DNA of 64,000 bases, taken from positions 3,498,049 to 3,562,048 of the forward strand of contig RPFO01000448.1 of assembly GCA_009746045.1 (NCBI GenBank), written 5' to 3'. The position numbers were made by a program, and so were the translations under genes. Positions 12,060 to 64,000 of this stretch are shown piece by piece; the first letter of the stretch is position 1, and every line of letters begins with the position of its first letter. The stretch comes from Mesostigma viride. Taxonomy: Eukaryota > Streptophyta > Mesostigmatophyceae > Mesostigmatales > Mesostigmataceae. The notes under the pieces were generated by a model that searched no databases, was not told the origin of the DNA, and worked only from the letters and a program-made list of their open reading frames with translations.

Positions 12060-12174
12060 GTATATTTGCATCGTTGAATATATATATGTAGACTTTCATA
12101 CTTCCAACGGCCGTTGGCGTTGGGAAATTCCCAGCTGCTGACTTCCATTCTTCGGTCAATCCATGGTGCGCGGG
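12060..12174. repeat. 115-bp direct repeat flanking the insertion, right copy
   Basis: Right copy of 9804-9918. It continues uninterrupted into TGTGTTGTGTTGCAG, the 3' splice site of intron 1, so this copy keeps the original intron end while the left copy keeps the original intron start. Confidence 0.9.
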
Positions 12175-12189
12175 TGTGTTGTGTTGCAG

Positions 12190-18475: not shown

Positions 18476-18812
18476 CCCATACTTTCTTTTTAAATAATTA
18501 TCATAAATTATTTAAAGCGAGGGGCAATAGGGTAGCACTGACCCTACGTACGTTCAAGTAGAGAAACACGTAACGGCACACTGACCGTCCCCAAATCCTA
18601 AACCCCAAGGAGGGTGCCCTACGCTGGGATCTGAGCACGCCAAAAACACCCGGGCTTTGCTCCCGGCCTCCTTTTCTACTTGGGTGCAACTGCACCACAT
18701 GCATCATTATTAGGCACACTGGCCGCCTGTCAGGTCTAGGGAAATGTATTCACAGATGAAAGAAGCGCCCATTCCCATGCAAAAAGACGACAGGTCACAC
18801 GGTAAAAAAAAC
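18476..18812 (-). other. element A 3' untranslated region
   Basis: 337 bp between the RNase H stop and the 3' LTR, with no ORF of interest. The segment next to the LTR supplies the likely polypurine tract. Confidence 0.7.
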
Positions 18813-23773: not shown

Positions 23774-23774
23774 G

Positions 23775-24014
23775 TTACTTGATAAACTCCTCCACGGCGG
23801 ACGGCGTCAGAATTTCTGGCAGCTTACTTGGCAGCTCTTCTTTCTTGAAAACTTTCCGGGCAGTTGGTGCTGACTGCTGCCCCGGAGCGGTGCTGACCGA
23901 GCCACCAGCTGGCTCAGTCGCCACGGTGGCTGCGCCACTCCCATCCGCCGGAGTTGATGCTTGCGTTCCCTGGTCCTGGGTTGCAGCTGCCGTTCGCTCC
24001 GCGCCACGCGCCAT
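23775..24014 (-). CDS. element A N-terminal Gag ORF
   Basis: 79 codons beginning MARGAERTAAATQDQGTQ, Ala/Thr/Gly/Pro-rich and then KKEELPSKLPEILTPSAVEEFIK. The ATG lies 46 bp inside the 5' LTR boundary, as expected for the first ORF of an LTR element. It is in a different frame from the following Gag ORF and stops 1 bp before it. It is either the true Gag start separated by an intron or frame lesion, or a short leader peptide. Confidence 0.55.
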   Translation of the reverse strand: MARGAERTAAATQDQGTQASTPADGSGAATVATEPAGGSVSTAPGQQSAPTARKVFKKEELPSKLPEILTPSAVEEFIK

Positions 24015-24060
24015 GAGCCCAGAAAAATGGTCAACGGTAATGTTGACTGTTGTGAATACA

Positions 24061-24489
24061 AGTTGAATGCCCTTCGCCGCTGGCTAGCACGCCGGCGATG
24101 GAGACGGGATTTTTGTTGTTTGGGGAACCGATTGTGGGAGGCTGAGCCCGCAGCCGCCACTGATTGCTATTGAACCCTTGCAGCTGGCCAGGCCGCAAGG
24201 AGCTCAGCGGCGCGGCGCTAACCGATAAGGCATGCTCGAGCCTCTAACCCGAGACTACCGGTAGGCTACCCGATAGTGCATGCTCGAGCCTCTAACCCGA
24301 GACTACCGGCACTCAGCGGATCTGTGCTACCGAGGGCGACGGTTCTCTGACCGTCCCGGCGCGCACTGGCTTCCGTACCTTGCTTAGGCACCGACTAGCA
24401 TCTAGACACCAATCTTTGATGCCCACCTGACTAGGCGCCCAGGCCGGCGACTACCGGCCAGCGGATAGATGCCACTCGGGAGCACAACT
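24061..24489 (-). repeat. element A LTR (5' LTR in element orientation)
   Basis: Same 429 bp as 18,047-18,475 with no difference seen. On the minus strand the LTR is followed by TGTATTCACAACAGTCAAC as candidate primer-binding region. It does not match the usual initiator-Met tRNA word TGGTATCAGAGC, so the primer is unknown. Confidence 0.93.
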
Positions 24490-42400: not shown

Positions 42401-44737
42401 CATGTACACACACCGCGCACGCTTGGGGCAGCTGCACACACACGTACACACACCATGCACGCAATTGCCGGCATGCACACACACGTACATCCACCGCGCA
42501 CGCAAGGGGCGGCTGCACACACACGTACACACACCATGCACGCAAGGGGCGGCTGCACACACACGTACACACACCGCGCACGCAAGGGGCAACTGCACAC
42601 ACATGTACACACACCGCGCACGCTTGGGGCGGCTGCACACACACGTACCTACACCGCGCACGCAAGGGCCGGCTGCACACACACGTACATACACCGCGCA
42701 CGCAAGGGGCAACTGCACACACATGTACACACACCGCGCACGCAAGGGGCAACTGCACACACACGTACACACACCGCGCACGCTTGGGGCGGCTGCACAC
42801 ACACGTACCTACACCGCGCACGCAAGGGCGGCTGCACACACACGTACATCCACCGCGCACGCAAGGGGCAACTGCACACACATGTACACACACCGCGCAC
42901 GCTTGGGGCAGCTGCACTCACATGTACACACACCGCGCACGCAAGGGGCGGCTGCACACACACGTACATCCACGGCGCACGCAAGGGGCAACTGCACACA
43001 CACGTACATCCACCGCGCACGCAAGGGGCGGCTGCACACACACGTACCTACACCGCGCACGCAAGGGGCGGCTGCACACACACGTACATACACCGCGCAC
43101 GCAAGGGGCAACTGCACACACATGTACATACACCGCGCACGCAAGGGGCGGCTGCACACACACGTACATACACCGCGCACGCAAGGGGCAACTGCACACA
43201 CATGTACATACACCGCGCAACCACGGGGCGGCTGCACACACACGTACATACACCGCGCACGCAAGGGGCAACTGCACACACATGTACACACACCGCGCAC
43301 GCTTGGGGCGGCTGCACACACACGTACCTACACCGCGCACGCAAGGGGCGGCTGCACACACACGTACATACACCGCGCACGCAAGGGGCAACTGCACACA
43401 CATGTACATACACCGCGCAACCACGGGGCGGCTGCACACACACGTACACACACCGCGCACGCAAGGGGCAGCTGCACACACACGTACATACACCATGCAC
43501 GCAAGGGGCTGCACACACACTTACACACACCTTGCACGCAAGGGCCGGCATGCACACACACTGGCATACACCGCGCACGCAAGGGGCGGCTGCACACACG
43601 TACATACACCGCGCACGCAAGGGGCGAGTGCACACACACGTACACACACCGCGCACGCAATTAAGGGACGGCTGCACACACACGTACATACACCGCGCAC
43701 GCAAGGGGCAACGGCACTCACATGTACATACACCATGCACGCAAGGGGCGGCTGCACACACACGTACACACACCATGCACGCAAGGAGCGACTTCACGCA
43801 CAGGTACACACACCATGCACGCAAGGTTCGGCTGCACACACATGTACATCCACCGCGCACGCAAGGGGCGGCTGCACACACATGTACATACACCATGCAC
43901 GCAAGGGGCGGCTGCACACACCTGTACATCCACCGCGCACGCAAGGGGCGAGTGCACACACACGTACACACACCGCGCACGCAAGGGGCGGCTGCACACA
44001 CACGTACACACACCATGCACGCAATTGCCGGCATGCACACACACGTACATCCACCGCGCACGCAAGGGGCAACTGCACACACATGTACACACACCGCGCA
44101 CGCTTGGGGCAGCTGCACTCACATGTACACACACCGCGCACGCAAGGGCCGGCTGCACACACACGTACATACACCGCGCACGCAAGGGGCAACTGCACAC
44201 ACATGTACACACACCGCGCACGCAAGGGGCAACTGCACACACACGTACACACACCGCGCACGCTTGGGGCGGCTGCACACACATGTACCTACACCGCGCA
44301 CGCAAGGGGCGGCTGCACACACACGTACATCCACCGCGCACGCAAGGGGCAACTGCACACACATGTACACACACCGCGCACGCTTGGGGCAGCTGCACAC
44401 ACACGTACACACACCATGCACGCAATTGCCGGCATGCACACACACGTACATCCACCGCGCACGCAAGGGGCGGCTGCACACACACGTACACACACCATGC
44501 ACGCAAGGGGCGGCTGCACACACACGTACACACACCGCGCACGCAAGGGGCAACTGCACACACATGTACACACACCGCGCACGCTTGGGGCGGCTGCACA
44601 CACACGTACCTACACCGCGCACGCAAGGGCCGGCTGCACACACACGTACATACACCGCGCACGCAAGGGGCAACTGCACACACATGTACACACACCGCGC
44701 ACGCAAGGGGCAACTGCACACACACGTACACACACCG
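24490..44737. repeat. 40-bp satellite, block 2 (with higher-order repeats)
   Basis: About 20.2 kb of the 40-bp monomer in a mixture of recurring variants. A rare marker monomer (GCAATTAAGGGACGG) occurs at about 27,305, 29,855, 30,179, 33,665, 35,325, 38,178, 41,697 and 43,658. The long monomer orders around 30.2-33.6 kb and 38.2-41.7 kb match, as do 41.7-43.6 kb and the sequence after 43.66 kb (period 1961 bp), showing higher-order amplification. It contains an N gap and a noisy segment at 31.5-37.8 kb. No genes. Confidence 0.97.
34227..34324. other. assembly gap
   Basis: 98 N bases inside the satellite, followed by AAAAAAGAAGAAGAGA, which is not satellite sequence. Flanking monomers carry many single-base losses and gains relative to other copies. 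Confidence 0.99.
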
Positions 44738-45389
44738 ACTTGCGCAGCAACTCGTCAGCAGAGCATGTGAGCTCCTGGTCCTTGCCGGCTGGAATGACCC
44801 TAGGCTGCTGGCTAGCAACCTTTATCCTCACACCAGGCCTACGACCCTCGATAGGCTCGCCACTCGTCGTGACGACCAAGGTTCGTGTGTGAAGACGCTC
44901 GTTGCCTCGTTGAGCCTCGAGCTATATGCAACCTCGTTCCATCCTTGTTCCTCGGTCATGAGCAACGCTGGGCAACGCTACATTGCCAGAGCCTCGTATC
45001 GCTGCCTGCATCCTCGTTGCAGGCAGCATACAGGAATCTCTGGCTATCCTGTGTCTAGGACAGCACAGGACCTGCCACAGTCCTGCAAGGACTTACATCC
45101 TTGCAGACCTGCTGGCTGGTTACTGGCTTCTACTAGCCACAGTACCGTTGAGCCCTCAGTACACTGTGTCCCAGTCACGTGAGAGTCAGGCTAAGCCTGT
45201 GCAGGCACGGCCTGCCACGTGTCCTGTCCACTATGCCCTGAGTGTGCCCCGCCCTCGCCCACCGGTCGGCAGTACTTCGGGACTTGATAACTTTCTAGTC
45301 CCTTGTCTGTTCTAGGCGGTTGACACGGCGTTGGAAAGGTCTCCTCAACCTGCATCCATCTAGCACATTGGTGCCCCAATATGCTAACT
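44738..45389 (-). repeat. element B LTR (3' LTR in element orientation)
   Basis: 652 bp. Differences from the other LTR include GAGCATGTG vs GAGCTTGTG, TTACTGGC vs TTACTTGC, a one-base indel in GTGAGAGTCAGG, and GAGTGTG vs GAGCGTG. It contains short direct repeats (CAGGCAGCATACAGG; CCTTGCAGACCTGCTGG). Confidence 0.92.
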
Positions 45390-46326
45390 CCAACCCTTTC
45401 TTGTTTTGGAGCTTGGACCAGCCTGAGAACCTATCAGCCACTGTCCCCACAAGCCTTCAGACATCTGATCCCTCCCAGAGACCAGACCTGCCTTTTCTTT
45501 TGGAACCTGAGGTGCCTCCAAATATTAGCTAGGCCTGCTCATTGGTTCAAAGGTTGCCCTCTGACCCACATGACATCCCAACCCTTTCTTTGGGAACCTG
45601 GTGTAGATTAAAGTTAGGTCTTCACTTAGTCAGAGGAGTTTGGATAGAGGAGTCCATGAACGTACTATTGTGAGTTCCTGGTCATCCAGTTATCACAGGC
45701 GCCCGTTCATATGGCGCCCGCCACGGAGCCTCCTTTATCTTTTAAATCCTTCCAAAGACTGAGAGAGCCCTGACAAATGTTAGCCAACACATGGGGAGCC
45801 CATGTCCTCACTGAGGGATAAACTCAGGATTCATACATGCCAGGCTGAGGTCAGCTGGGGAATCGAACCCCACCCCATCTCCTCCAGGTTTGGATCAGCT
45901 CCTGGAACTGAGCATCACAAACAACAAGACATGACAATAACAAGATTATGTTTTATTATAAAGGAGTATAACCCATAGTGAGGCCCCTGGCAACCACGTC
46001 CAACATGGTCACACAACCAGGGATTTTATTAGCATGCAACAGGTTGGTTACAGAGAATATATACAAATGTACAGCAACCTGTTAGAGCCAACACTTGGGC
46101 TGCCCTTGCAGGGTCCATTCCATGAAGACCCAAGGCCCATTACAAAGTCCTTAAGACTCTTCTGCAGCTCCATGACAGAGCCAGGCGAAATTCTCAGCCA
46201 GGGGAGTGACTCCACCCTGACCCCTGTCCAGCAGAGTGTGTCTGAACTCTGAAGGACCTGCTGTCAGCCACCACGTGGCTGCCCAGCCCACTGGGATGCC
46301 TCCCACCTAGAGCAAGGCTGTTTGGT
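45390..46326 (-). other. element B 3' non-coding region
   Basis: About 940 bp between the RNase H stop and the 3' LTR. AACCCTTTCTT next to the LTR (45,391) recurs at 45,582, so the purine-rich tract on the element strand is duplicated. No ORF with recognisable motifs. Confidence 0.6.
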
Positions 46327-46690
46327 CTACTCTGGCCCTCCCCCCTTGGAGGCCATGAGCCCACGAAGCAAAGGGTATTGCAGCTCAGCCTTCTCCTCCA
46401 GCTTGGTGAGAGCATCTGCAGGGTTGTCCACGCCAGCCACATGTTCAATGTTAGCTAAGCAAGACATTTCCTTGAGCAACAAATAATCAAGGTCCCTGCT
46501 CCTGGCCAGCTGCCTGTGCACAAACTGCACCATGCCCATGCTGTCAGTTCTTACCAGTGTGTGCATCTGCAACCGACAGGAAGCCACTTGACATAGCTGG
46601 TAAAATAGCTCCCTCAAGTAAAGAGCAGTATGAAGCCCTTCACAGATTGCCCTGCACTCAGCAATGTCACTGCTGGGAGTTACCCTGTTT
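46327..46690 (-). CDS. element B RNase H, C-terminal part
   Basis: The frame contains SDIAECRAI (the acidic AECRA motif, upstream of the first ATG at 46,617), then RTDSMGMVQFV and DNPADALTKLEEK, matching the DSKS and ADALTKP motifs of element A. It is the continuation of the main pol ORF after a one-base frame break at CAAACAGGGTAAC (about 46,690). The ending MASKGGGPE is followed by the stop at 46,327. Confidence 0.75.
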
Positions 46691-49100
46691 GCAACCGACT
46701 GTACCAGCAGACCAGAGAGGACTGTTCCTGCACCAGGGATATTAATGCTGCTGCACGGCCCCTGACCTCTGTGACCTTCCTACTATCCATAGAACTGTCC
46801 ACATAGAGCATCATGTCAAAAGGCCTGTACAAATCCAAAGGACCCAGCATGAGAGGGGGAGACATGCGAACAGCCTCTACCACTCTCTCAGCACCCACCT
46901 CAACCAGTTGGGAATCGGTCAACCGACTCAGTACCAACAGGTCAGGAGCACAAATGCTGGCCAGCCATGCCAACATACCTCGTATTGTTGCACATCTGGC
47001 CTGGGTGATGGGCTCCTGCAAGGCATCTATGATCTGCTGAGGATAATCCTTACCACCCTCCAGCTGGATGGACCATGTACCCTGCTGATGGACCAAGGTC
47101 GCCTGCATTCCACAAAACACCATGGGCTCATTCTCAACCATGTACTGGATCTTACCCAGTTCAAACCGTTTCTGGATCCTGGCCAGAGTCAACTCTTGCC
47201 AAGTGGGATGGCCCAGGAGATGCAGATCATCACCATGCAGGGAGGCAAACGCTGGCAGCCCCTCATAGCTACCCTGAAACAGACAAGGATCAACTGGAGA
47301 GACTGAGAGACCACAGACAGACCTGAGGTACTTCTCCAAGCTCTTCCTCCAGATGATGGGACTCGATCTAAGGCCTTCCACGCCTTTGAGAATCCTCAAA
47401 TACCTCGTCTTCAGCTCTGCCCTCCACACTGCAGGCACCTTAACAAAGAAAGGGGGTATTGTGCGCCAAGTATCCTGTGCTTCCTGCTGATCACCCTTAA
47501 GAAAAGCCCTCTTGAAATCTACCAACACAGAGCTATAGGGTATCCCCTTCTGCAGAAAAGACAAATAAATGCACAACAAAATCCTCCATGTATCATGCAG
47601 CATCCCTGGTGTGTAAAGCTCCTCATCTGCTAACTGTCCAGTGCCATGGTACTCAGTCACAACTGGTCTAACATGTGGCACCTGCACGCCATCTACCTCC
47701 TTGAGCTTGAGGACAAACATCAATCTGAGCAGCTGGTGATCCTCAGGGAGGACATCCACAGGCTCTGCACAGTTGGCAACTATCCACTCATGCCCAGAAG
47801 CAACAAAGCCAAGAGTCCATGCCTTAGCCATCTTGGGGCTTTGCATCATCTCCACTAGCTTGCGCCAAGGTACAGGACTCGTTCCTGGGATCTGGTACCT
47901 CTGCACACCCAACTCACGTGGGTCAAACGTAGTAGGGAGGATCAGCAGGTCCCCAGCAATGGGCTCCTTTGTATCAGGACCCTCTGCCTCTAGACCCCTC
48001 ACAGCCCTTACAGCCACACTAAGACCCTGGGAGTAGCGATATCTCTGCAAGGGAAGGCGGCCCTGCCCTTCTAATGCTAGCTCCTCAGAGGATATCCTCA
48101 CCCCTGGTAAGCACAAGAAGTTCTGACCTAGAATGGCAGGCCCCTGATACCCTTCAACCACACTGAACGTGGTGGGCACCCCCAGGATAGGCACACTCAC
48201 TTCTCCCAAGATCTTCATGGACACATTCCCAGAGAAATCAGACACAGCTAGGCAGCTAGGGGATGACCACTGCAAGCCTGCAGCATCCTCTACCCTTAGA
48301 ATGGACACCTGTGAGTTGGTATCCACTTCTAGTGCTGGTGCCCCACATGACCCCCATCCCGTGAGCTTAGATACCTTGGGATCACGCTTGCTGTTCTGCA
48401 GAGCTCGAATGATGTCCGCCATAAGCAGCCCCCTGGACTGTGGTGCAGCCCTGGCCACCTCTGGCCTTGTGACAGACGTCTCAGCAGACTCCTGCTCACC
48501 CTCATCCATCCAGGACAGACCATAATCCAAGCATGGTGGGTTAGCATCTGCTGCCTGGCTCTCATCCTGCTCATCTCCCTCCAAGGGAGGATCAGGGCCG
48601 TCTTCAGGCCAGATTGCAGTTGGCCTTCTCTCCTTGACGTGAGCCCAGGATAGCCTGTACACGTGCTTGGGATTACTCTCCAAAGCCACCAGACAAGAAT
48701 GGTTAGCTTCCTCAACATGGGTTACCTGCCCATCTTGCCACTTGCCACGCTTGCCTGGTAATGACGGTTCCTTCCACATCCTGACCCTCAGTCCCACCTG
48801 GGGCCTCAGCATTTTCCAACCCTTGTCCTTACGCCTCAATCTGGAAAACACCCTGTCTGCCTTCTTCAGGCAGGCTGCCACCACGTCCTGTGATAGCATA
48901 CCAAACTGCAATGCCAGGGGAGAGACTGCCACACCATCATAGTAATAGGTTACCCTGTGGTTAAGCTGCTCCTCAATCCCCTTACACCAAGCTGCTTTCT
49001 CTAGAGCTGATGCCACAACAGGCACACTCCTAGCTGCTAGCACCACTGTTTTTACTTCACGTATAGATCTCTCTACAGCTCCCTGCTGCCCATGGATTCC
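46680..49100 (-). CDS. element B pol: integrase end, protease, reverse transcriptase, RNase H start
   Basis: The open frame includes the integrase catalytic Glu (QQGAVERSIREVK), upstream of the first ATG at 49,046, then a C-terminal integrase segment. The protease follows (LEVDTNSQVSIL at residues 239-250; SVPILGVPTTFSVVEG and AILGQNFL around 285-315). RT has VDFKRAFLKGD, GVEGLRSSPIIW and LHGDDLHLLG. RNase H begins at YVDSSMDSRKV and stops out of frame after CWYSRLQT. As in elements A and C, the protease sits after the integrase. All catalytic acids visible in RT are intact. Confidence 0.85.
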   Translation of the reverse strand, partial: GIHGQQGAVERSIREVKTVVLAARSVPVVASALEKAAWCKGIEEQLNHRVTYYYDGVAVSPLALQFGMLSQDVVAACLKKADRVFSRLRRKDKGWKMLRPQVGLRVRMWKEPSLPGKRGKWQDGQVTHVEEANHSCLVALESNPKHVYRLSWAHVKERRPTAIWPEDGPDPPLEGDEQDESQAADANPPCLDYGLSWMDEGEQESAETSVTRPEVARAAPQSRGLLMADIIRALQNSKRDPKVSKLTGWGSCGAPALEVDTNSQVSILRVEDAAGLQWSSPSCLAVSDFSGNVSMKILGEVSVPILGVPTTFSVVEGYQGPAILGQNFLCLPGVRISSEELALEGQGRLPLQRYRYSQGLSVAVRAVRGLEAEGPDTKEPIAGDLLILPTTFDPRELGVQRYQIPGTSPVPWRKLVEMMQSPKMAKAWTLGFVASGHEWIVANCAEPVDVLPEDHQLLRLMFVLKLKEVDGVQVPHVRPVVTEYHGTGQLADEELYTPGMLHDTWRILLCIYLSFLQKGIPYSSVLVDFKRAFLKGDQQEAQDTWRTIPPFFVKVPAVWRAELKTRYLRILKGVEGLRSSPIIWRKSLEKYLRSVCGLSVSPVDPCLFQGSYEGLPAFASLHGDDLHLLGHPTWQELTLARIQKRFELGKIQYMVENEPMVFCGMQATLVHQQGTWSIQLEGGKDYPQQIIDALQEPITQARCATIRGMLAWLASICAPDLLVLSRLTDSQLVEVGAERVVEAVRMSPPLMLGPLDLYRPFDMMLYVDSSMDSRKVTEVRGRAAALISLVQEQSSLVCWYSRLQTG

Positions 49101-49525
49101 CTAGGGACCACTACCAACTTACAAGGAAGCTGGTCAGCCAGCTTGATCAAGCAGTCAAACTGCAAGTCAGCTTGCACCTTGGTGTACACCCCAAAGCCTG
49201 GCAACAAAGACTGGAGACCCATCAACAGCTGATGCTCCTGCATTCCAGGAAGAATGGTCAGCAACCTATATCTGCTAAACCTATCCACCCCCACCAACAG
49301 ATACATGCCCCTGATGTGTTGGATGTCCACCTGGATATCCCCCCGCTCTCTAGCAGGTTCTCTGGCATGGGACTGTGGGAGGCGAACAGCATTCTCCTGA
49401 CAGACACAATTCTGAGCAGCTGCACTGCAGGCCTCTAGCAAAGGCTCCTTGCCAATCTTCCAAGCAAACATCTCTGCCTGCTTAGAGGCCAAAGATATGG
49501 TGTAGAGTGTTTCCAGCCTGAGCAT
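49073..49525 (-). CDS. element B integrase core, frame-shifted fragment
   Basis: Carries GDIQVDIQHIRGMYLLVGVDRFSRY (first Asp region) and VQADLQFDCL (second Asp); the third acidic residue lies in the next frame. The HHCC finger is degenerate (only VCQEN recognisable). The frame breaks at about 49,090 (downstream) and about 49,500 (upstream), so this enzyme is not encoded intact as assembled. Confidence 0.7.
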   Translation of the reverse strand: MLRLETLYTISLASKQAEMFAWKIGKEPLLEACSAAAQNCVCQENAVRLPQSHAREPARERGDIQVDIQHIRGMYLLVGVDRFSRYRLLTILPGMQEHQLLMGLQSLLPGFGVYTKVQADLQFDCLIKLADQLPCKLVVVPRESMGSREL

Positions 49526-49916
49526 AGCTCAACCCCCTGTCAGCCTGGCTGCACAGAGAGGAACGTGACAAAGACTGTGTGCTTGGGATAGCACGACCCA
49601 CCTGCTGTTCTCTTGCTCCAGGGACCTCCTCCAAGGTAGCTCGGCTCCCAGAGCCAGCCCCGGTTCCCACAGAAGCTGCAGGTCCTTCCAGTCTGGCGGC
49701 TTGACTCCCAGAGTCAACCCCAACAACTGGAGACCCTGCACCTGCCACAGGCACAGGGAATTCCACTGCTGCAGCAGCGTTATTGCAATCATTGAGTGGA
49801 AGCACCTCATCATTCCCAACCCCTTGCTGCTGCACAAGAGGGACACCCCCATTACTATGTACAACTGTTCGTCCCACTAGGGGTGATTGACTATTTACAG
49901 GGGACAACATCTCAAG
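49482..49916 (-). CDS. element B Pol N-terminal linker after UGA
   Basis: Directly continues the Gag frame after the UGA at 49,917-49,919 (GKP-UGA-LEMLSPVNS). It is a low-complexity Val/Gly/Ser/Ala-rich linker with an internal duplicated phrase (VDSGSQAARLEGPA and GSGSRATLEEVPG). VDSGSQ superficially resembles a protease site, but no flap or second-half motif follows. It ends LHHIFGL, out of frame with the integrase fragment. Confidence 0.6.
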   Translation of the reverse strand, partial: LEMLSPVNSQSPLVGRTVVHSNGGVPLVQQQGVGNDEVLPLNDCNNAAAAVEFPVPVAGAGSPVVGVDSGSQAARLEGPAASVGTGAGSGSRATLEEVPGAREQQVGRAIPSTQSLSRSSLCSQADRGLSYAQAGNTLHHIFGL

Positions 49917-50990
49917 TCATGGCTTACCCACCTGGCCAGAGCCTGCTCCAGCAGACTTGGCCTGGTCTGGGCAGTCACGTCGCCAATGACCCGTCCTGCC
50001 ACATCCAAAGCATTTGTCATCCTTCCCAGCAGCAGCCTTCTTCAGGCCACCCTGGTTCTGGCTGCTCTGACTGGCCTGGGTGCCCTGGCCCTGGCTCTTG
50101 CCTTGCCCTTGGCCACCCTTGTTCTGCTGACCACCCTGGTGACCACCAGCCTGCTGCTGACCCTTGCCTTTGGATCCCTGCTGCTGGCCCTTGCCACCCT
50201 GGTTACCATTCTGCCTGCGCCTGTTAGCCCTCTGACGCCTACTAGGTCTGGTTTCTCCCTGAGCACCCTGCCCAGGGGCGTCACCATGGACCTGATGAGC
50301 GGAGGCTGAAGGGGCACCAGTCACCTGGATTGCCTTGCAAGCAGCATTGTCAGATGGACGGATATTGAAAATAACCTTTTGCAAGGCTGGCCACGTCCCA
50401 TCTGTCTGATCAGCAAACATCCTAGCTGCATTTCTCCCATCCACACTCAGCCCCATGCGATCCAGGAAGTAATCTGCCACTGCTCTATCAGTCAGATTGA
50501 AGCCATGCTTGGCCCCCTTCTCCCTGATGCGTGTGAGCCGCTGCAGCTCCTCAGCTATTGTGCCCTTGATCTCAAAGGTATCATAGCTGAGCTTATAGTG
50601 ATTAGTGAGGTTGAGTACCTTATCAGAAAACTCCTGACGTAGGCCCTCTAGGAACTGAGACCAAGTCAGCTTGTCCTTGACAGCCTGCCTAGCCTTGTCC
50701 CTCACACGCTCACTTGAATCCCTATTAGTCGTGGATGTGTGGAATACCTGCACAAGGTTGACAGTGGGATCTACAGAGCATGAAACTAGCTCCATATCCT
50801 CCAACCACTTGTCTAGCTCTTCCTGTCCCACAGGAGGCTTGAGAGGCTTCTGGCCATTCATCACAGCCACAGCACTCATATGAGGTCTAGTCCCAGGCAA
50901 AGCACGAGGGTCACTGCCAATGACAGCAGCTCCTACTGGTGCTAATGGCGCAGGAACATAGCTGCAGGAACACCAGACGCAGGCACACAT
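49917..50990 (-). CDS. element B Gag (capsid / nucleocapsid)
   Basis: 357 codons. A helical region (EELDKWLEDMELV to LFADQTDGTW-like sequence, residues about 75-215) resembles the capsid part of copia Gag. A long Gln/Gly/Lys-rich basic tract (about 235-315) follows, then the zinc knuckle CFGCGRTGHWRRDC (CX2CX4HX4C) near the end. It ends GKP-UGA-CUU with the frame open beyond, as in element A. The listed ATG (50,990) is probably not the true start: the preceding coding region lies in another frame. Confidence 0.8.
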   Translation of the reverse strand: MCACVWCSCSYVPAPLAPVGAAVIGSDPRALPGTRPHMSAVAVMNGQKPLKPPVGQEELDKWLEDMELVSCSVDPTVNLVQVFHTSTTNRDSSERVRDKARQAVKDKLTWSQFLEGLRQEFSDKVLNLTNHYKLSYDTFEIKGTIAEELQRLTRIREKGAKHGFNLTDRAVADYFLDRMGLSVDGRNAARMFADQTDGTWPALQKVIFNIRPSDNAACKAIQVTGAPSASAHQVHGDAPGQGAQGETRPSRRQRANRRRQNGNQGGKGQQQGSKGKGQQQAGGHQGGQQNKGGQGQGKSQGQGTQASQSSQNQGGLKKAAAGKDDKCFGCGRTGHWRRDCPDQAKSAGAGSGQVGKP

Positions 50991-51166
50991 GGTCTCTTAC
51001 CAGGTGCTTGACGTTCAGCATCATTCTGGCCCTCCCCCGTCAGCACCACGCCGTCGGTTGGCCACCCTGCACGCTCCTCCCCTTGTGCCACCTCTTTCCT
51101 CTTCCGGTTGGATGCCCTCCTGCCATTGACGCCCTCTGCCGTTGGGATCGCCTGTCCCTCTGGCAC
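50942..51166 (-). CDS. element B middle Gag fragment
   Basis: 74 codons (MPEGQAIPTAEGVNGRRASNRKR...), basic and Pro/Gly-rich, overlapping the start of the next Gag ORF in another frame. It is probably a Gag linker separated by a frame break from its neighbours. Low confidence as an independent product. Confidence 0.35.
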   Translation of the reverse strand: MPEGQAIPTAEGVNGRRASNRKRKEVAQGEERAGWPTDGVVLTGEGQNDAERQAPGKRPCVPASGVPAAMFLRH

Positions 51167-51472
51167 GACGTTGGCGGGGCCTCCCGTGTCTGCCCTTGCC
51201 TCACCCCCGCCATCCCCCGCTCCCGCCCCGCTCCCGCTGCCGCCCCGCGCGTGTTACGAAGCATTATAGAATACCACAGAAACACACGCAGATATGGCTG
51301 CTGGAACCCACTCAGGCTCACGCACTTACTCCAGACGAGGCCGCCTCCTGGCTTGCACTCGCCTGCCCCTCCTCACGGTCTGGACGCTGCTCAACACCCT
51401 CAGCAACCGGTATGGCTGCTGCTGCCTCTGCGACAATCTGGAGGTCTGGGTTAAACTCTCCCAGCACGCAGG

Positions 51473-52153
51473 TCACAGGTCGCCCGTCTCCTTGCGTTCG
51501 ACTGGATGTTGTGTCTCACCTGGGTTGCGATGCCAAGCAAGATCGCGTACCCACCGCTTACCGCCGCCGACAAGCTCGTTCTGCTCGCCTCGGCCGTAAC
51601 GGTCGTACTCGTGAGTCACCTCACGAGGGATATGCAGATCAGCTCTCTGCCTTGCCTCGTAGGTCTCGGTAGTGCCGTCGCCCTCGTTTATCTGCTGGGC
51701 TGAGCGCTTGACGGAGCCCTCTGGCTTGTCAGTCCACTCAAAATGGACGTCTTCAGGCGTCTTCTCGACCCCCGTGACAATCTCCACCTCCGGACCCCAC
51801 GCAGTGGTGGTTTCCGGCCTCGGTGTATCAAGCCTGGAGTACACTCCGAAAGGCTGCGTGGTAATATAGAACCTGTCTGCGTACCCTCTCGACTCTTGCA
51901 AAAGGACAGCAACAAGATTCTCAATGGTTTGGGCAAATACCTCCGCCGTGCTCCAAGGATTTACCGTCTCCCGAGCACGCGCGTTCCGGATGATGTCGGC
52001 GTCTGGTACCCCCTCTCCTAGCACTGCTGTCGCCACCCAGTGGTTAAACAGTCGGGTGCTGCCGAGCGCTGTTGCCACAATCTGGCTAAGCGCCTCCCTG
52101 GCTAGGTCGAGACCGGCTAGCGTGATATGGGCGCCCTGATAAGCGACCTCCAC
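51473..52153 (-). CDS. element B N-terminal Gag, second fragment
   Basis: 226 codons, rich in acidic and aromatic residues (GVEKTPEDVHFEWTDKPEG; YGRGEQNELVGGGKRWVRD). It continues the ORF at 52,171-52,452 after a frame break near 52,180 (VAVEELV in one frame, SDALAETANRVEVAYQG in the other). Past 51,473 another frame (GEFNPDLQIVAEAAAA) continues to about 51,330, where GTAAGTGCG could be a splice donor. No homologue recognised. Confidence 0.5.
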   Translation of the reverse strand: MEVAYQGAHITLAGLDLAREALSQIVATALGSTRLFNHWVATAVLGEGVPDADIIRNARARETVNPWSTAEVFAQTIENLVAVLLQESRGYADRFYITTQPFGVYSRLDTPRPETTTAWGPEVEIVTGVEKTPEDVHFEWTDKPEGSVKRSAQQINEGDGTTETYEARQRADLHIPREVTHEYDRYGRGEQNELVGGGKRWVRDLAWHRNPGETQHPVERKETGDL

Positions 52154-52170
52154 ACGATTAGCAGTTTCAG

Positions 52171-52452
52171 CTAGCGCGTCCGAATGCGCACCAACTCTTC
52201 CACCGCCACTCGCCCCGTCTCACCTGGAGAAATCACGACGCGAGCCCGTTGTATAATCGGGTCCGCCGCCGCTGGCCTGCTGCCTCCCCCACTCACCGCC
52301 ACCCACCCCTCTTCTGCCAAGTGCCTCGCTACGTAGGCCGCTTGCACGAATGTTGGAGCGTTTGCTTGGTTACGGTAGGGGAAAAACGCTTGCGCGTCTC
52401 TCTGCTCGTTCGCCTCACCAGCACCGTGGCTGCTTGACGATGAACCAGACAT
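52171..52452 (-). CDS. element B N-terminal Gag, first fragment
   Basis: The likely Gag start is ATG at 52,452-52,450 (MSGSSSSSHGAGEANEQ), only 23 nt after the 5' LTR, leaving space just for a primer-binding site. It encodes about 90 residues before the frame break. An upstream in-frame ATG at 52,617 lies inside the LTR and is not favoured. Confidence 0.55.
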   Translation of the reverse strand: MSGSSSSSHGAGEANEQRDAQAFFPYRNQANAPTFVQAAYVARHLAEEGWVAVSGGGSRPAAADPIIQRARVVISPGETGRVAVEELVRIRTR

Positions 52453-52475
52453 GAAAGCGTGGAAGCAATAGTACG

Positions 52476-53128
52476 ATTTGCGCAGCAACTCGTCAGCAGA
52501 GCTTGTGAGCTCCTGGTCCTTGCCGGCTGGAATGACCCTAGGCTGCTGGCTAGCAACCTTTATCCTCACACCAGGCCTACGACCCTCGATAGGCTCGCCA
52601 CTCGTCGTGACGACCAAGGTTCGTGTGTGAAGACGCTCGTTGCCTCGTTGAGCCTCGAGCTATATGCAACCTCGTTCCATCCTTGTTCCTCGGTCATGAG
52701 CAACGCTGGGCAACGCTACATTGCCAGAGCCTCGTATCGCTGCCTGCATCCTCGTTGCAGGCAGCATACAGGAATCTCTGGCTATCCTGTGTCTAGGACA
52801 GCACAGGACCTGCCACAGTCCTGCAAGGACTTACATCCTTGCAGACCTGCTGGCTGGTTACTTGCTTCTACTAGCCACAGTACCGTTGAGCCCTCAGTAC
52901 ACTGTGTCCCAGTCACGTGAGTGTACAGGCTAAGCCTGTGCAGGCACGGCCTGCCACGTGTCCTGTCCACTATGCCCTGAGCGTGCCCCGCCCTCGCCCA
53001 CCGGTCGGCAGTACTTCGGGACTTGATAACTTTCTAGTCCCTTGTCTGTTCTAGGCGGTTGACACGGCGTTGGAAAGGTCTCCTCAACCTGCATCCATCT
53101 AGCACATTGGTGCCCCAATATGCTAACT
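52476..53128 (-). repeat. element B LTR (5' LTR in element orientation)
   Basis: 653 bp, about 99% identical to 44,738-45,389, ending GCTAACT at the CACCG target duplication. Candidate primer-binding region on the minus strand right after the LTR: CGTACTATTGCTTCCACG. It was not matched to a specific tRNA. Confidence 0.92.
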
Positions 53129-57176: not shown

Positions 57177-57649
57177 AGTTAGAATGCGGTGGGATATATT
57201 GCTTGAGAACACTGAAGGCTTGGAGCAATGAATTGCTTGGTTCATTAGAAAATAGGTTTACCCTTTATCAACGTTCCTCTCACCGGCTGCGCCGCCAGTG
57301 ACCGTTGGGTGCAGACCGTTGGCCCGAGGCCACACGATGACAGGTAGCAGTCTAGTCACTGCATCGTGCGATCACAAATCAATGCACGCTGCAGTACGGT
57401 CCCTATCTAGGATACTCTAGTACCGTCCAATGACAGGACACTACGTATACTGGGTACTGACATCTGTCACGTACCTCAGTACCCAAAGTACCTATCTAGG
57501 GAAACGTATGCGACTCGACTAGCATTCCTATCTGCATAGCCCACGTGGTATTTATATTCACATACCAACGTAGGTTTACAAGGCTTATTCATACGTTGTA
57601 TTCACAATGCCTTTGAGACTTAGTCTACAGCAAAGCATGGAGACTAACT
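57177..57649 (-). repeat. element C 3' LTR
   Basis: 473 bp proposed from the satellite junction (AGTTAG at 57,177) to CTAACT at 57,644-57,649. These ends are a perfect 6-bp inverted pair and are followed by a pyrimidine-rich stretch (element-strand polypurine tract, AAGAAATAAATAATAAAAC). Only one copy lies in the window, so the inner boundary rests on the end motif. Confidence 0.7.
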
Positions 57650-58023
57650 CCAGTATTGTTTTATTATTTATTTCTTAATGCAGGTCTGCACCCCCAACAT
57701 TATTGTTATTGTTTTTAAGTTGATTAGGGGTACAAAAGAGACATGGCTGGTTGAGCCAGGTTGGTTACAGCTGGCTGTTCTGGCCAGGTGTTATATTGCA
57801 CATTAAATAAGGTGTACACAGCTGGCTGGTTTGGCCAGTTACTGAAGCACACATTAAGTAAATGGATACAAAGCTTGTGTCCTCAAGCTGCAAATGGATA
57901 CAAATCTGACCTAGCCAGCACTCACACCCCACAACGAATGTGTTGAATTTTATGGCGCCCAGCAGCTATCGCTGTGGTAAGGGGGTGTGGTGGTTGTGTA
58001 CTGTGCTATGGCCAGTCATTTAT
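57650..58023 (-). other. element C 3' non-coding region
   Basis: About 370 bp, AT-rich next to the LTR, with two GGCTGG-containing imperfect repeats (57,750-57,840). No gene. Confidence 0.6.
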
Positions 58024-58745
58024 TCAAACACTGACTCTGATATCATAGGGGTTCATGTTCTGAAAGAGGAGCTGGTACTGTTGGCCAGCAGCATCCCGCA
58101 GCTTCGTGAGAGCGTCTGCTGGGTTGTCCTCATCATCCACATGAGTCCAGCTGGAAAAATAGGTGGCCTCCTGTTTGAGGATCACCCAATCCAGGTCAGT
58201 GTGGACAGCAGCAGAGACAGATTTCTTGGTTAGAAAACTGATCACAGATTGGCTGTCAGTATAGAGATGTGAGATGACATTGCATGTGCTGCCTGCCTGG
58301 GTTTGTAGCCAGGTGAGCATGTGCTGCAGGGAACGAGCATGCAATGCAGCAGACACCACAGCACGACATTCAGCTGAGTTGCTGCTGCCAGGTTTTCTGC
58401 GGTGTAGCCTGCTGTACCAGGAAGTGAGGGACATGTAATCTGACCTGTTGGTGAGAAAAAACAGCCCTGATTCCCGTGCCCCCATCTGATTGATTGTTCT
58501 GCTCTCCATGGAGCTGTCCATGACACTGTGATGTGGATGTCTTCCATCAGATTCAGGCCATGGAGGATGAGGGGGGGGCAGTCATGACAACTTCCTGATG
58601 TGACTGCATTTGATTTTGACTAGAACATCATGGGTGACCCTGCTGATGACAGCTAAGGGAGCCCCACAGATGGCTGACCACCACCCCAGTTTGCCCTGAA
58701 CAGTGGCACACATGTGTAAGGGGAGGCAGGTGTGATGCAGCAGAT
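58024..58745 (-). CDS. element C RT end and RNase H, frame-broken
   Basis: After the main ORF stops at 58,746, another frame supplies the RT end (GKLGWWSAICGAPL, matching GQLGWLAG in A), interrupted by a stop and a C/G homopolymer near 58,570. The RNase H frame 58,024-58,521 follows: MDSSMESRTI (first acid), SSNSAECRAVV (Glu), YTDSQSVISFL (Asp) and DNPADALTKL (final Asp). At least two frame breaks separate RNase H from Gag-Pol, so either this copy is defective or the homopolymers are misread. Confidence 0.75.
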
Positions 58746-61700
58746 CTAGACAATCTTGGATATATTCTGCAGGAGGAGAGAGAGAGCAGACCCATGATCT
58801 GGCTGCCTGTGCAGCTGCAACATGATGCCACAGAACTGGATGGGGGTTGTGCTCAATTCCACCTGTTTGCCAATCTCATATGATTCCTGGACCTGCTGAA
58901 TAAAGGTTTCCACCTCAGCTCTAGGCCCACAAATGAGTTGGTCATCTCCATGCCACACAAAGAACAGCAGTCCAGAGGGGGTGGGTACAACAAAAAAGCA
59001 TGGGTCCAGGTCATCATACGTGGCCTTGAGCTTTTTGAATACTTCCTCTGCTGAGTCTCTGAAAATTTTTGGGGCACTGACAAGCCCTTCCACCCCAATG
59101 TTGATGATAAGGTGGGGCTCATCAATGTAAGGTTTCCACACAGCTGGGGTGTCTACCACGTACACCTTCCCTTTCCACACAGATTCAGCCTTTTCTGGGT
59201 CCCCCCTGAGGAAGGCCCTTTTAATATCAGTGGCTTTGCAGACATAGTCTTGGCCTGCATTGAGGTTGTGGAGGAATAGGGAGAGCATGATCCTGAGTGA
59301 GGTTTGTTGCAGCCCAGGTGTGTATGTTTCCCCTTTTGGCAGTGTGGATGTCCCCTTTAATTCTGTGACACATGGTCTGGCATGGAAGATTGGGGAGCCC
59401 ACTTTTTGTGGTTTTTGTTTGAGAACAAATTTTAATCTGAGCTTTTTGGCTCCCTCTGGCACGTCCCATGAAGGGGTGACAGGCGGTTTGTATTGAGGGT
59501 TTTTGGGGTTGGGCAGGACCCATTCCTGCCTGGCTTGGTGGACAATGGCCATCAGCCACTTGGTAAACCCTTTTTGTGTTTTGCATTCTTGTATGACGTG
59601 GGAGATTTGGTGGGGTGAGTGCATGGCTATGTCCCACTTACCCAGCCCAAAGGCTGAGGGATGGAGGAACTGGCTGTGCACTAACTTGTCCAGATCAGGG
59701 ATCTCCCCTGGTGCATACTGAGTGTTGACTGCCTTGATGACAGCATCCATACCAGGGACAATACTGGAGAGAGGGATTTTAAAGTGGTCCAGAGGAACTG
59801 CACCCACCCCTGTGACACTGAGCTCATTAGCTGAGATAAGCACCCCAGGATAGGATACAAAAGGTTCCCCCAACAAGGTGTTACCAGAGTACCCCTCCAC
59901 CACCTGGAAGGGTGTCTGAATACCAAGTATAGGGAGCATCACTTGTCCCACTACATCCAGTGAGCTTTGGCCTGAGAAATCCTGCACCCGTGCCCAAAAT
60001 GAAGGTGCAATCTCAAGACCAGGGATGGCTTGTGCACTGATCACACTGACCTGTGCCTGAGTGTCTATTGCCAGGGTCCAGGGGTCCTGACTAGTGCACA
60101 CAGCTGAGACTTTTGCCAACCCTGCGGCCACAGCAGCTTGTTGCTTATGTGACCTGTGTAATGCTTGCAAGGCGACTGCCAATCTTGACCTCAGAGCGGG
60201 AGGGTTGGCAGACAATTTGGTGCCTTGGGGCTGAGCTAATGCTTCCAACCCAGCTACCTCGTGCCTGGTTAAGCAATCCCCAGGTTGTGAAGTGGGCCTG
60301 GCTTCACTGAGGGTGGAAGGGTTCACAGAGGGTGCTGTGGTGCTGTCAACAGCAGTAATTGGTGGCTCAGAGCTACTGCTGGGCATGCTGGAGTTGCCAG
60401 ATAGAAGTAGTGAGTCCATGCTTAAAGACTCTTCCCCAGGCACGTCTGCCATGGGAGAATAATACTTCTTAATTCTATGACAGCTCACCCTGTGACGCTT
60501 CCCATTGATATTGTGCTTGACCTCCACGGTCTTGCTGTTTTTGGTAAATCCACGGATGGTAACTGGACCTAGCCAAGTTCCAACCTTACCAAAGCTGTTT
60601 TCCTTGTAATAGAGAACTTGATCACCTTTTTGGAATACTGGCCTGGAATGGGTTTTATCTTTTTCTGCCAGTTTTGCTGAGGTTTGTGCACGTGCAGTGT
60701 TGTACAGTGCTATCACCTCTGGGGGATATACACCTGCCTGCAGGCCTGCTGGGATTACTTCACCCCACGTGGCATGCAAGACAGGTCTCATGTTTAGGGT
60801 TGTGCACATTTCATGACACCAGAGTGCCCTGTCACAATAGACCCCTGAAGTAGCATCCTTGGAAGGATTTTTGGCTAGTAGGGTTTTGACAGATCTGATG
60901 GTTCTTTCAATGACCCCCTGACCCTCATGATCTTCCAGCCCAGCAATCTCTATTGCTTCACACCCTTCCAGGTCAGTCAGACAAGAAAATTGTTGATCAA
61001 GCAAAATTCTGTCAACTGGGTAGAATCTGGGTAAAGCAATCATGAGTGCAACACGTAGCTGCCCTGCAGACATGCCAGGTAGGGGTTCCATTACTGTGAA
61101 CCTGGACCATGAGTCTTTTAGGATCAGGTAGGGTTGGACATCTTTGTTGATGTGCATCACATCCCCCACTATCATGCCCCTATTGGTGGAAGGAGTTGCA
61201 GTATGCCATTTTTGAGGTTTGGGGCTATTGAACTGACATTCTTGACAGTGTTGTCTAGCCAGTTTTACTGCATTCCTGAGTTGTTTTCCCATGCTACTAC
61301 CCCCCAGCCGTCTGGCCAGTTCCTCAGCCACTGTTTCATGACCCATGGCTAGGTGCAGCTGATGAGCAAGCTCCTTGATATCTATGGAGTTGTCAACAGT
61401 AGGGGTTAGTGCTTTTATGTAAGGTTCCAGAACAGGGTGTTGGGAGGACAGTAAGGTTGCTGCCTCAAAATCAATTATGCCCTGGTTGCCATCCCCAATG
61501 GTAATGAGATCATCATCCTCAGAGTACATAAGGTGAGTGAACTCACATTGATTTGGGTAGCGAGGCCTGTTGCAACGGCTGCCTGGAGGCCCCAGGGGAT
61601 GACGTGCGTGCCAGCAGCCCGGGCAGAGATCCACCCCGTTGGCCAGGGAGTCGTTGTTGGGGCAGTTGTGCCGTGCGTGCCCTCGTTGGAAGCACCTCAG

Positions 61701-61856
61701 GCACCTTATGGACCCCCAGGGTTGCCAGGCTGGTTGTTGTTGTGTTGTTGTTGTTGTTGTTTCCCTGCTGGGACCGGTTCTGGCCCTGCTGGGACCTGTT
61801 GTTGTTGTTGTTTTGGCCCTGTTGGGACCTGTTGTTATTGTTGCCCTGCTGGGACC

Positions 61857-61887
<31 letters not shown>

Positions 61888-63578
61888 GGGGTTGCCATGC
61901 AGGGGCACACGGTGCCACGTGTTGCCACGCCCCTGAGAGCCACTGCCCCCTTGGTGGGAGGACTTGTGGGTCTTGGGTGCCCCCCCTGGCTGGCCTGCCC
62001 CTTGCGTTTGTGGCCTTGGACACCCTGGACCTTGGGGTCCTGGGCCTGGTTGTTGCCAGTACCCAGGGGGTCCACTGCCTCCTCGATATAGAGCATGGCA
62101 GCTCTGAAGTTGTCCCAGAGGGACTTGAGGCCTGTAAGCAGGGTAGCCAGGACAGAAGGTTGCAAATTAGCTTTTGTTAGCCAGGTGTGGATGAGATACC
62201 TTGGTTGGAGCTTGAGAAGCTCAAGGTCTTTCTCAATCATTACCCTGTATGTTTTTGCATCCCCAGAGAGGTTATTCTTGTTCACCTTATATGCAGCAAG
62301 CCAGTTGAAACGTTCTACTGCTTCCATGTGGTTATTGGTAAGCACTAGCTGTTTCAGATCAGTGATAAAGGTAGGCCACTGTTCAATGGCTGCTTCAGGT
62401 GTCAGGGTACGTTCCTGATAGGTTTGAATCAATGCTCTGATTGCAGGAGATGATTGATGGAATGTGGAGGAGGCCCTGAGAGCCTTAAACTGATGTCTAA
62501 GGTTAAGACCTTCCATCCCATACTCCAAAGCAAAAACAAATTGCTTAGCTTGTTCAACAGTGTGACCCTCAGGCAAGCCAGCAATATTGATTTTGGATTC
62601 CTTTTTATGAGGGTTAAACACACCTGTGAGAGGGGGGTTGGCCCTCAAGAAGCTGTCGGTTGCTTGTTGCAGGCGGGTGGGGTCCAGGTTGATGGTCCCC
62701 CGCTCATACCGCGACATCAGGGCGCGCAGGCCCTCGACAGTTTGCAGCTGGTTAGCTGTTAACTGCTGATCTTGCAACGAGGCCAGCTGGGCCTGGAGAA
62801 TGGCGAGCTGTTCCAGGACATCCCCGCTCCTTGGGGGGGCCTCAGCAGGCCTGTTGGGTGCCTGTGGCACCTCTGCACCTCCCCCCAGGGCCTCCTGGGG
62901 TCCTGGCCACCCCCCCTGGTTTGGGAGGGGGCCCCAACCCACAGGGCGAACCTGGGGTGGTGGGGGAGGGGGAGGGGGGGTCATGGTGGCCCTGGGGGAG
63001 CCCGGGGGTGTCCGGGTAACCCCACTGGGTCCAGCCCCATCGGTGGAGGGGCGGGCAGGGGTGTCTGCCTCTGCTCTCCTCCTGGCCTCCTCCCGCATGA
63101 GACGCTTCATCTCCTTGCGTACCTCATGCTCCCGGAGGGCTGCCTGAAAAGCAGCCTCATCCTCGGGTATGTCAGGGAGTGGTTCTCCCATGATCATAGC
63201 GGGCCGGACTGGACAGTCCGCCTCTTTGCCCTTCCTCGCGCCCAGGGCCAGCAGTCCCTCCTTGTACTGCAGGGGTTGGGGGGGAGAGGGTTTCTTGCTG
63301 GTGGTTTCCAGCGGGGGGGCTTCTTCAGCTACCACCCCATGTTTGGCCAAGATGGCCTCCGTGACCCTGGCTTGGGTGATGGAGGACATGGTTTTAAAGT
63401 GTGCTGACCGAGCAAGCTCGGCCAGGTCTTGACTGTCCGCATAGTGCATGGGATAGTCAGCATTTTTTAAGAGGTCACGTAACCGCTGGGTGGCCTCGCG
63501 GTACGCGTCCGCCAATAGCACGATCGAATGCGAGGCCTTGTGAATTTTAATGCCTGCGTGGACGTCATAGGCAATCAT
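58746..63578 (-). CDS. element C Gag-Pol polyprotein (Gag, integrase, protease, RT)
   Basis: 1610 codons in one frame with no stop between Gag and Pol. Residues 1-300: charged and Pro-rich N-terminal Gag. About 300-560: helical capsid-like part. A Thr/Pro tract from (TTG)n follows, then zinc knuckle CLRCFQRGHARHNC at 626-639. Integrase: HQLHLAMGH (H742, H747), CQEC (about 780), GDVMHI, LLDQQFSC, QGVIERTIRSVK (all three acids present), and SFGKVGTWLGPVTI as a GPY/F-like end. Protease: AIDTQAQVSVI (Asp1172), then MLPILGIQTPFQVVEG and TLLGEPFV. RT: TDIKRAFLRGD, GVEGLVSAPKIF and WHGDDQL (about 1540-1546). No protease-like D[T/S]G lies between zinc knuckle and integrase. The frame ends prematurely within RT (NISKIV) compared with element A. 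Confidence 0.9.
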
Positions 63579-63860
63579 GCATACATGGGCGTGTGCATAA
63601 TAAAAATGCTGTCAATTTTCACAACCATACACGTGCAGGCACACACATGGCCGTGTGGATGATGTGAAATTTTTTGCCACCATGCATAATTGCATGGCCA
63701 TGCATGAGGTGCGGCATGGTTATTCATGATTCCTTACTTGAAAATCTGGCACCCTTTTTACACCATTACAACAACCATGGATGCATTCTCTTGCCCACAT
63801 CTTGCTAGCACAGTAATTGTTTGAGTCAATCTTTTATGATCCTAATCCAAAGCTTCCGAG

Positions 63861-63998
63861 TTATGACGTGGTTGTACATGTGCATCTGATCGCCTGGTGG
63901 GTAGCCAGGCGACGGGCGGCTTCCTCTTCATATTCTTGCCGCTTAGCGGCGAGCCGAAAAGCCGCCTCTCGGCGGACCTCTCGGTCCCGCTGCCGCTC
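63861..63998 (-). CDS. partial ORF, charged coiled-coil segment (possible upstream Gag)
   Basis: A 46-codon frame open to the window edge reads as repeated Arg/Glu/Ala (VRREAAFRLAAKRQEYEEE), a likely coiled coil, and stops at 63,861. Its composition resembles residues 150-180 of element C Gag (EHEVRKEMKRLMREEARRR), so it may be part of a longer Gag or of the 5' region of element C, separated by about 280 bp of AT-rich non-coding sequence. Too short to assign. Confidence 0.3.
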   Translation of the reverse strand, partial: ERQRDREVRREAAFRLAAKRQEYEEEAARRLATHQAIRCTCTTTS

Positions 63999-64000
63999 TC

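Follow-up and report, generated by a model that had tools for sequence, protein, structure and literature searches.

Three multi-copy families of LTR retrotransposons with a protease-like domain between integrase and reverse transcriptase

Introduction

The Pol domains of LTR retrotransposons follow the order protease, integrase, reverse transcriptase, RNase H (PR-INT-RT-RH) in copia elements, and PR-RT-RH-INT in gypsy elements. A preliminary description of the stretch of DNA analysed here (64,000 nucleotides, called the window) reported an element, C, with a zinc knuckle, INT, a PR-like segment and RT in one frame, and two more elements, A and B, repeating this order. Does such an order belong to a lineage or to a single rearranged copy, and is the segment between INT and RT related to known proteases? 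A search of open-access papers found no element with a Gag-INT-PR-RT-RH order.

Results

Domain order of elements C, A and B

All three elements are on the minus strand. Element C (57177..64000) is cut by the window edge; comparison with another copy, L025, located its 3′ LTR (57177-57649, AGTTAG...CTAACT). Its ORF (58746..63578) proved to be real, and its 1610 aa comprise a partial Gag, INT, the PR-like domain and RT. The zinc knuckle (CCHC, residues 626-639, 61662..61703) is followed by an integrase identified by alignment with A and B (residues 737-1045, 60444..61370), with HHCC from residue 739, C-x2-C at 778, catalytic residues D806, D861 and E891, and an SH3-like C-terminal segment near residue 982. 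The PR-like domain (residues 1163-1262, 59793..60092), located with a retropepsin profile, reads DTQAQVSV...LLGEPFV, with IDTQAQ at residue 1171 and LLGEPF at 1235. The RT (residues 1372-1593, 58800..59465) begins at about residue 1372 and carries HGDD at 1543. This copy is not intact: its RNase H (58054..58701, found by tblastn of A against the window) lies in a different frame from the ORF, and its Gag carries a 374-bp insertion (63515..63888), absent from copies L025 and L007, which encodes the N-terminal ~21 residues of the ORF given above. In L007, an uninterrupted frame of 2058 aa covers Gag, knuckle, INT, PR, RT and most of RH; it stops inside RNase H, which is in frame as far as YTDS.

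Element A (18047..24489) has the target-site duplication (TSD) CCTTG and identical LTRs of 429 bp (24061-24489 and 18047-18475, AGTTG...CAACT). Its Gag, with zinc fingers (22562..23773), ends at an in-frame TGA (22562-22564), with C as the next base. The integrase and the start of the PR-like domain continue in the frame of Gag (20702..22546, from alignment and copy L043), and the third catalytic residue of this integrase is Asp, not Glu. In the window copy the PR-like domain (20526..20848, DTMAG/VSI...LIGNPFV, the slash marking the break) has a frame shift at its active site, at 20828, and the remainder of the domain, RT and RNase H occupy an ORF at 18813..20828. A programmed frameshift at this site was ruled out: L043, whose sequence was followed from its TGA to the end of PR, has no shift and an uninterrupted INT-PR, and 13 of the 74 genome matches listed for A are open over 1249 aa.

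Element B (44737..53128, with CGGTG as the probable TSD) has LTRs of about 655 bp that are 99.1% identical (52475-53128 and 44737-45389). Its Gag, with CCHC (49917..50990), likewise ends at an in-frame TGA (49917-49919), and again the next base is C. The frame of the integrase core (49073..49525; rve E=0.0069, below the cut-off) is broken in the window and open in copy L041. One ORF (46683..49046) encodes the INT C-terminus, the PR-like domain (48072..48344, DTNSQVSI...ILGQNFL; retropepsin profile, ORF score 31.1), RT and a partial RNase H. Copy L041, fully read, has INT-PR-RT-RH in one frame behind the in-frame TGA, and an open 1197-aa frame is present in 22 of the 57 genome matches listed. 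Alignment confirmed that A and B share the order of C, with identities to C of 41% and 34%; the PR-like segment sits between INT and RT in all three families.

Copy number and recent activity

The broken frames of all three window copies could suggest an assembly artefact or a lone rearranged copy. Against this, the genome listings contain at least 74 matches for A, 57 for B and 43 for C, there are many copies on many contigs, and the copies read share the order in uninterrupted frames; the artefact explanation is refuted and keeps practically no probability. The uninterrupted copies elsewhere in the genome rule out both chance and a one-off rearrangement, and the preliminary view that a lineage is involved is supported by three multi-copy families. 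Three multi-copy LTR-retrotransposon families with the order Gag-INT-PR-RT-RH are thereby confirmed. L044 and L045, two ordinary copia elements read from this genome, have the order Gag-PR-INT-RT-RH.

TSDs of 5 bp flank four C copies (L025-L028) as well as A and B in the window, where the LTR pairs of A and B are near-identical; the families have been copied recently. The in-frame TGA is retained in a further copy of A and a further copy of B. Downstream of the 5′ LTR the sequence reads TGTATTCA.. in A and TGAATTTT.. in C; judged by eye, it has no TGG start, and priming by a partial tRNA is possible. Among 13 of 20 C loci (the minus-strand loci L006, L011, L014, L015, L022 and L024 and the window copy L005 were left out), dN/dS was 0.55 for Gag, 0.23 for INT and 0.51 for the linker, and the PR segment showed zero synonymous differences. 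Rfam and ARAGORN scans of the 64-kb window found nothing. When IMG/VR was scanned with C, with A and with an alignment of RTs, no relative was confirmed; a WHGDD...FCG pattern occurred in four contigs, none of which tblastn showed to be a relative (E 0.42 at best), and a scan of bacterial and archaeal genomes found no relative.

Affinities of the reverse transcriptase, RNase H and integrase

The RVT_2 profile matched the RT of C (E=1.8e-5) and B (E=0.0013), both below the curated cut-off, and gave no match in A; RVT_1 matched none of the three. Compared with the ordinary copia element L045, the RT-RH of B gave E=8.7e-11 and the RT of C E=1.8e-6. By these similarities, and for A by an RT 46% identical to that of C, the RT and RNase H of A, B and C are classed as copia-type. 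The rve profile gave weak matches in A and B and none in C. The HMM searches by which the preliminary description had meant the order to be checked recovered, weakly, RT in B and C and INT in A and B; library profiles missed the PR-like domain. The LTRs and 5-bp TSDs are as in Ty1/copia, but the Pol order is INT-PR-RT-RH in A, B and C, and neither the order nor the RVT_1-type RT of Ty3/gypsy is present.

The segment between integrase and reverse transcriptase

A profile of the cellular retropepsins ASPRV1 and DDI was used, replacing a DDI-only profile whose score of 19.6 was equalled by 18 of 400 shuffles, and by 4 of 400 at the same place. On the C/B/A polyprotein, the best match of the new profile was at 1163-1248 (score 27.5 or 29.1); column shuffles had means near 15, and 0 of 500 in each set reached the real score. 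An alignment of the three complete domains scored 31.7 (E 4.8e-5, 0/500 column shuffles), and with single segments no sequence shuffle reached the score, for B (0/300) or for C (0/300). As a positive control, the profile located the PR of copia L044 and L045 at the known place with scores of 17-19, below those for the polyproteins of C (22) and B (28-31). With a copia PR profile the domain scored 13.3, which is background, and the earlier impression that this protease is unlike that of copia is supported. The motifs D[ST]x[AS]x[VILMF][ST][VILF] and [VIL][IL]Gxx[FLM][VIL] are 63-64 residues apart in every family. Together, these comparisons point to a similarity to retropepsins (clan AA) that is in register over the domain.

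Alternatively, the segment might be an unrelated, conserved beta-rich linker resembling retropepsins by chance; in favour of this, searches with Pfam and PDB profiles gave no match. AlphaFold models from three-row alignments were also of low quality (pLDDT 37.5 and 39.2), and fold searches with the second were contradictory, weak in Foldseek (which may be biased by a PDB rich in HIV protease) and negative in VIA. This explanation is nevertheless improbable, given that no column shuffle in 500 reached the score in two designs, that the register is right at both the Asp and ILG/LLG, and that B and C outscore two genuine copia PRs. A retropepsin fold is what the sequences suggest.

Could the true protease lie in the usual place between Gag and INT, unrecognised, with the middle domain as an addition? 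Element B has VDSGSQ in frame there (residue 68 of the 1197-aa Pol frame), and yet the sole [VIL][IL]Gxx[FLM][VIL] of its Pol belongs to the middle domain. D[ST]G[AS] was not found in the C frame (2058 aa), the Gag of A or the part of its Pol that was read (723 aa), and with the retropepsin profile the stretches between Gag and INT reach no more than background scores (10.6-15.9). In C the gap between knuckle and HHCC is only ~100 residues and contains a second Cys cluster. A copia-type protease (Pol_BBD) was found in L044 and L045 but not in A, B or C. A hidden protease in this position is very improbable.

Is the domain a working protease?

The Gly of the catalytic triad (D-T/S-G) is gone in all three families, which have DTM (A), DTN (B) and DTQ (C), while Asp and Thr are kept in each. 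The lost Gly would fit a pseudo-protease, a retropepsin descendant without catalysis that serves structurally (e.g., as a dimerisation module before RT), with processing by a host protease or none at all. The PR-like domain is also conserved about as well as RT: its identity to C is 46% in B and 47% in A, against 37% and 46% for RT and 19% and 25% for the spacer 3′ of it. In plant elements, PROT reportedly varies more than RT, RH and INT (PMC6317226), and RT-like conservation would fit a structural role. On the other hand, an invariant Asp and Thr beside a freely varying third position (M, N, Q) fits selection on catalysis, and the putative protease of ordinary copia L044, in the standard position, is also without the Gly (DSAAS). 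We regard a pseudo-protease as unlikely, though the least unlikely of the alternatives; the domain is a candidate protease.

Discussion

The explanation that we favour, and hold to be fairly probable, is that A, B and C are a copia-type lineage with INT-PR-RT-RH Pol, in which the copia PR has been replaced by a retropepsin/DDI-like domain ahead of RT, Pol following Gag directly or via a TGA. Gag stands first and Pol continues in its frame, directly in C and after a single TGA-C stop in A and B, where readthrough by a minority of ribosomes may set the ratio of Gag to Gag-Pol. With the copia protease missing between Gag and INT, the domain before RT would do that job, presumably dimerising within the particle and separating Gag, INT and RT-RH by cleavage. 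The arrangement may have arisen by loss of the copia PR and gain of another retropepsin, or by a shuffle whose product is the gypsy Pol (PR-RT-RH-INT) circularly permuted.

More tentatively, and with slightly less than even confidence, Gag-INT-PR-RT-RH may be a third Pol architecture: recently active, with copia-type RT, the copia PR lost, a separately derived retropepsin/DDI-like enzyme with a D-T-x active site between INT and RT, and UGA readthrough of Gag in two of the three families. Recent activity in a lineage that has PR after INT would mean that filtering of elements can hide real diversity, that the protease can differ in position and type without a matching change in RT, and that the aspartic-protease triad may be able to do without its Gly. 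Because INT-PR-RT-RH is the gypsy Pol in circularly permuted form, it is relevant to the origin of the copia and gypsy orders.

Comparison with known systems

Gmr1 differs from the new elements in having the copia order, with PR before INT. It combines a gypsy RT with a copia-like Pol order (PMC2774666), and is thus an earlier case of Pol order and RT type being at odds within an LTR lineage. DDI1/DDI2 and ASPRV1 (clan AA) show profile similarity to the new domain across ~85 residues in the correct register, but they are distant and have D-S/T-G where the new elements have D-T-M/N/Q. The Ty3/gypsy and retroviral Pol resembles that of A, B and C in having PR ahead of RT-RH, in a PR closer to the retropepsin/DDI type and, by eye, in the SH3-like end of INT; it differs in that the new elements have INT first, not last, and a copia-type RT with no RVT_1 match. 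Ty1/copia elements (Pseudoviridae, including L044 and L045) share with them an RVT_2-type RT, a copia-type RNase H, INT before RT, LTRs and a 5-bp TSD, but have a Pol_BBD-type PR between Gag and INT, whereas A, B and C carry another PR-like domain after INT, the RT motif HGDD and only weak RVT_2 similarity.

Domain Order and Genome Copies

Element C carries an uninterrupted 1610-aa ORF (58746–63578, minus strand) encoding, in order, a zinc knuckle, an integrase (INT; HHCC, D-D-E and an SH3-like end), a retropepsin-like segment and a reverse transcriptase (RT), the domain order that the preliminary description had claimed. The identical order it had proposed for elements A (18047–24489) and B (44737–53128), also on the minus strand, was found in both. 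None of the three window copies is intact. A frame shift interrupts A at the active site of the protease (PR), and B is shifted within both INT and RNase H (RH). In C, Gag carries a 374-bp insertion and the frame shifts ahead of RNase H. The insertion (63515–63888) contains ATGCATG-like stretches and is possibly a small non-autonomous element.

The surrounding assembly (440 Mb, 2243 contigs) holds at least 43 matches to C, 57 to B and 74 to A, partial pieces included; these counts are lower bounds because only the best candidates were scored. Among the matches listed, an open frame of 1197 aa is present in 22/57 for B and one of 1249 aa in 13/74 for A. One C copy (L007) has an uninterrupted 2058-aa frame running from Gag through the knuckle, INT, PR and RT into RNase H, ending just past YTDS. 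In the one B copy read (L041), Gag is followed by an in-frame TGA, after which the frame continues through INT, PR and RT and reaches the end of RH. In an A copy (L043), the first 723 aa were read; they start at the TGA and cover INT, PR and part of the spacer, and the active site, DTMAGVSI, is without the shift. A, B and C are three recently active families.

The LTRs of A are an identical pair of 429 bp (AGTTG...CAACT) with the target-site duplication (TSD) CCTTG. Those of four C copies match over 473–483 aligned columns at 96.4–100% identity (AGTTAG...CTAACT), with 5-bp TSDs of GATGC, AACAC, GCAAC and AGCAC. The B LTRs in the window are about 655 bp, 99.1% identical and start with AGTTAG; we infer CGGTG as the TSD. 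In all three families the LTRs start with AGTT and not with TG; LTRs that lack TG/CA termini are known from 3 of 26 diatom families (PMC2806351).

A 40-bp satellite array of 101 copies (53129–57176) exactly spans the gap between the 5′ LTR of B and the 3′ LTR of C. It is matched by the window flanks of A and of B and by the 3′ flank of C; the 15-base flanks of the four C copies elsewhere gave no match to it. Window stretches at about 24500–44700 resemble this array, judged by open frames. A long 30-bp tandem repeat (769–3726, plus strand), with CHGVLACMDG-like units over 985 aa, leaves several reading frames open and is probably non-coding. A 292-aa ORF (12163–13041, plus strand) contains WSDNCKEQF and GHGKGESDGEGG, which we take to be reminiscent of a transposase; it has no Pfam match and lies near exact duplicated segments (9922–10385 and 11457–11920).

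Retropepsin-Like Segment

Profile searches of the middle segment against Pfam, NCBIfam, PHROGs and PDB gave no match, and a profile was therefore built from solved cellular retropepsins (ASPRV1, DDI1, DDI2, yeast Ddi1 and 7efy). When its best place was sought with hhalign along the whole 1610-column polyprotein, it fitted best at 1163–1248, with the catalytic Asp and LLG in register; the score was 27.5 when ASPRV1 led the profile and 29.1 when DDI2 did. The mean for shuffled profiles was about 15, and 0/500 reached the real score in either version; an earlier DDI-only profile was weaker, its score being reached by 18/400 shuffles. The three complete PR-like domains together scored 31.7 (E 4.8e-5, 0/500 shuffles). 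Sequence shuffles reached the score of the C or the B segment alone in 0/300 cases each, and that of the A segment, lacking the catalytic strand, in 43/300, which is not significant.

Background scores (Gag, INT and RT stretches of C, and Gag–INT stretches of all three elements) were 10.4–15.9, with the exception of the A integrase, which scored 20.5–22.2 with DDI-led profiles. As a positive control, the profile was run on two ordinary copia elements of this genome and placed their PR correctly, at scores of 17–19; the C (22) and B (28–31) polyproteins scored above these with the same profile. A is the weak case, with 18.1 at the PR using one profile and a preference for INT using the other.

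The Asp and Thr of the catalytic triad are invariant, and Gly is replaced at the third position by Q in C, N in B and M in A. This missing Gly is the main doubt about catalysis. The protease of an ordinary copia element of this genome (L044, residue 347 of the frame) reads DSAAS, not DSGAS, so Gly loss reaches beyond the new lineage, protease activity in L044 being putative. B and A share 46% and 47% identity, respectively, with C in the PR-like segment, compared with 37% and 46% in RT, 32% in INT (C–B), and 19% and 25% in the spacer behind the segment; the B–A value is 37% in the segment and 41% in RT. The PR-like segment is therefore constrained about as much as RT.

A protease between Gag and INT in intact copies would have spoken against this arrangement; none was found in the sequences read, and the Gag–INT stretches of all three elements scored at background with the profile. 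From knuckle to HHCC, C has about 100 residues holding a second Cys cluster. The motif D[ST]G[AS] is absent from the C frame, the A Gag and the part of the A Pol that was read. B has one VDSGSQ between Gag and INT; the residues around it are rich in Gly, Ala and Ser, an ILG partner is absent, and the retropepsin score is at background.

Proposed Expression

Gag and Pol lie in one frame in all three elements. A single TGA followed by C parts them in A (22562–22564) and B (49917–49919), and is kept in one other genome copy of each (L043, L041); family C is without a stop at this point. The conserved TGA-C suggests that ribosomes may read through from Gag into Pol in A and B. The PR-like domain, a putative protease, would release Gag, INT and RT-RH. 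At the catalytic Glu position, the A integrase has Asp (about 21745 in the window copy, and likewise in L043), and B and C have Glu.

Comparison with Known Elements

The best 150 of 1981 candidates in a whole-genome RVT_2 search all exceeded the curated cut-off (148–178 bits), and A, B and C were not among these 150. The RTs of B and C matched RVT_2 at 18–25 bits, far weaker than ordinary copia, and that of A gave no match. The RT catalytic motif is HGDD, not YxDD, in C (58941–58952), B (47226–47237) and A (19704–19715), whereas two ordinary copia elements (L044 and L045), those of the 150 read in sequence, have HVDD. Both carry Gag, knuckle, PR (Pol_BBD), gag_pre-integrase, INT, SH3, RT and RH, the standard copia order, which the tools thus recognise where it is present. 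Both orders coexist in one host genome.

Searches of an open-access library listed no description of INT-PR-RT-RH, in line with the earlier statement that no described lineage with PR after INT was known. The known Pol orders are PR-INT-RT-RH and PR-RT-RH-INT (PMC6317226, PMC2806351), and in Gmr1 a gypsy element has the copia order (PMC2774666). The order INT-PR-RT-RH is therefore rated a new variant of LTR elements, with a putative protease.
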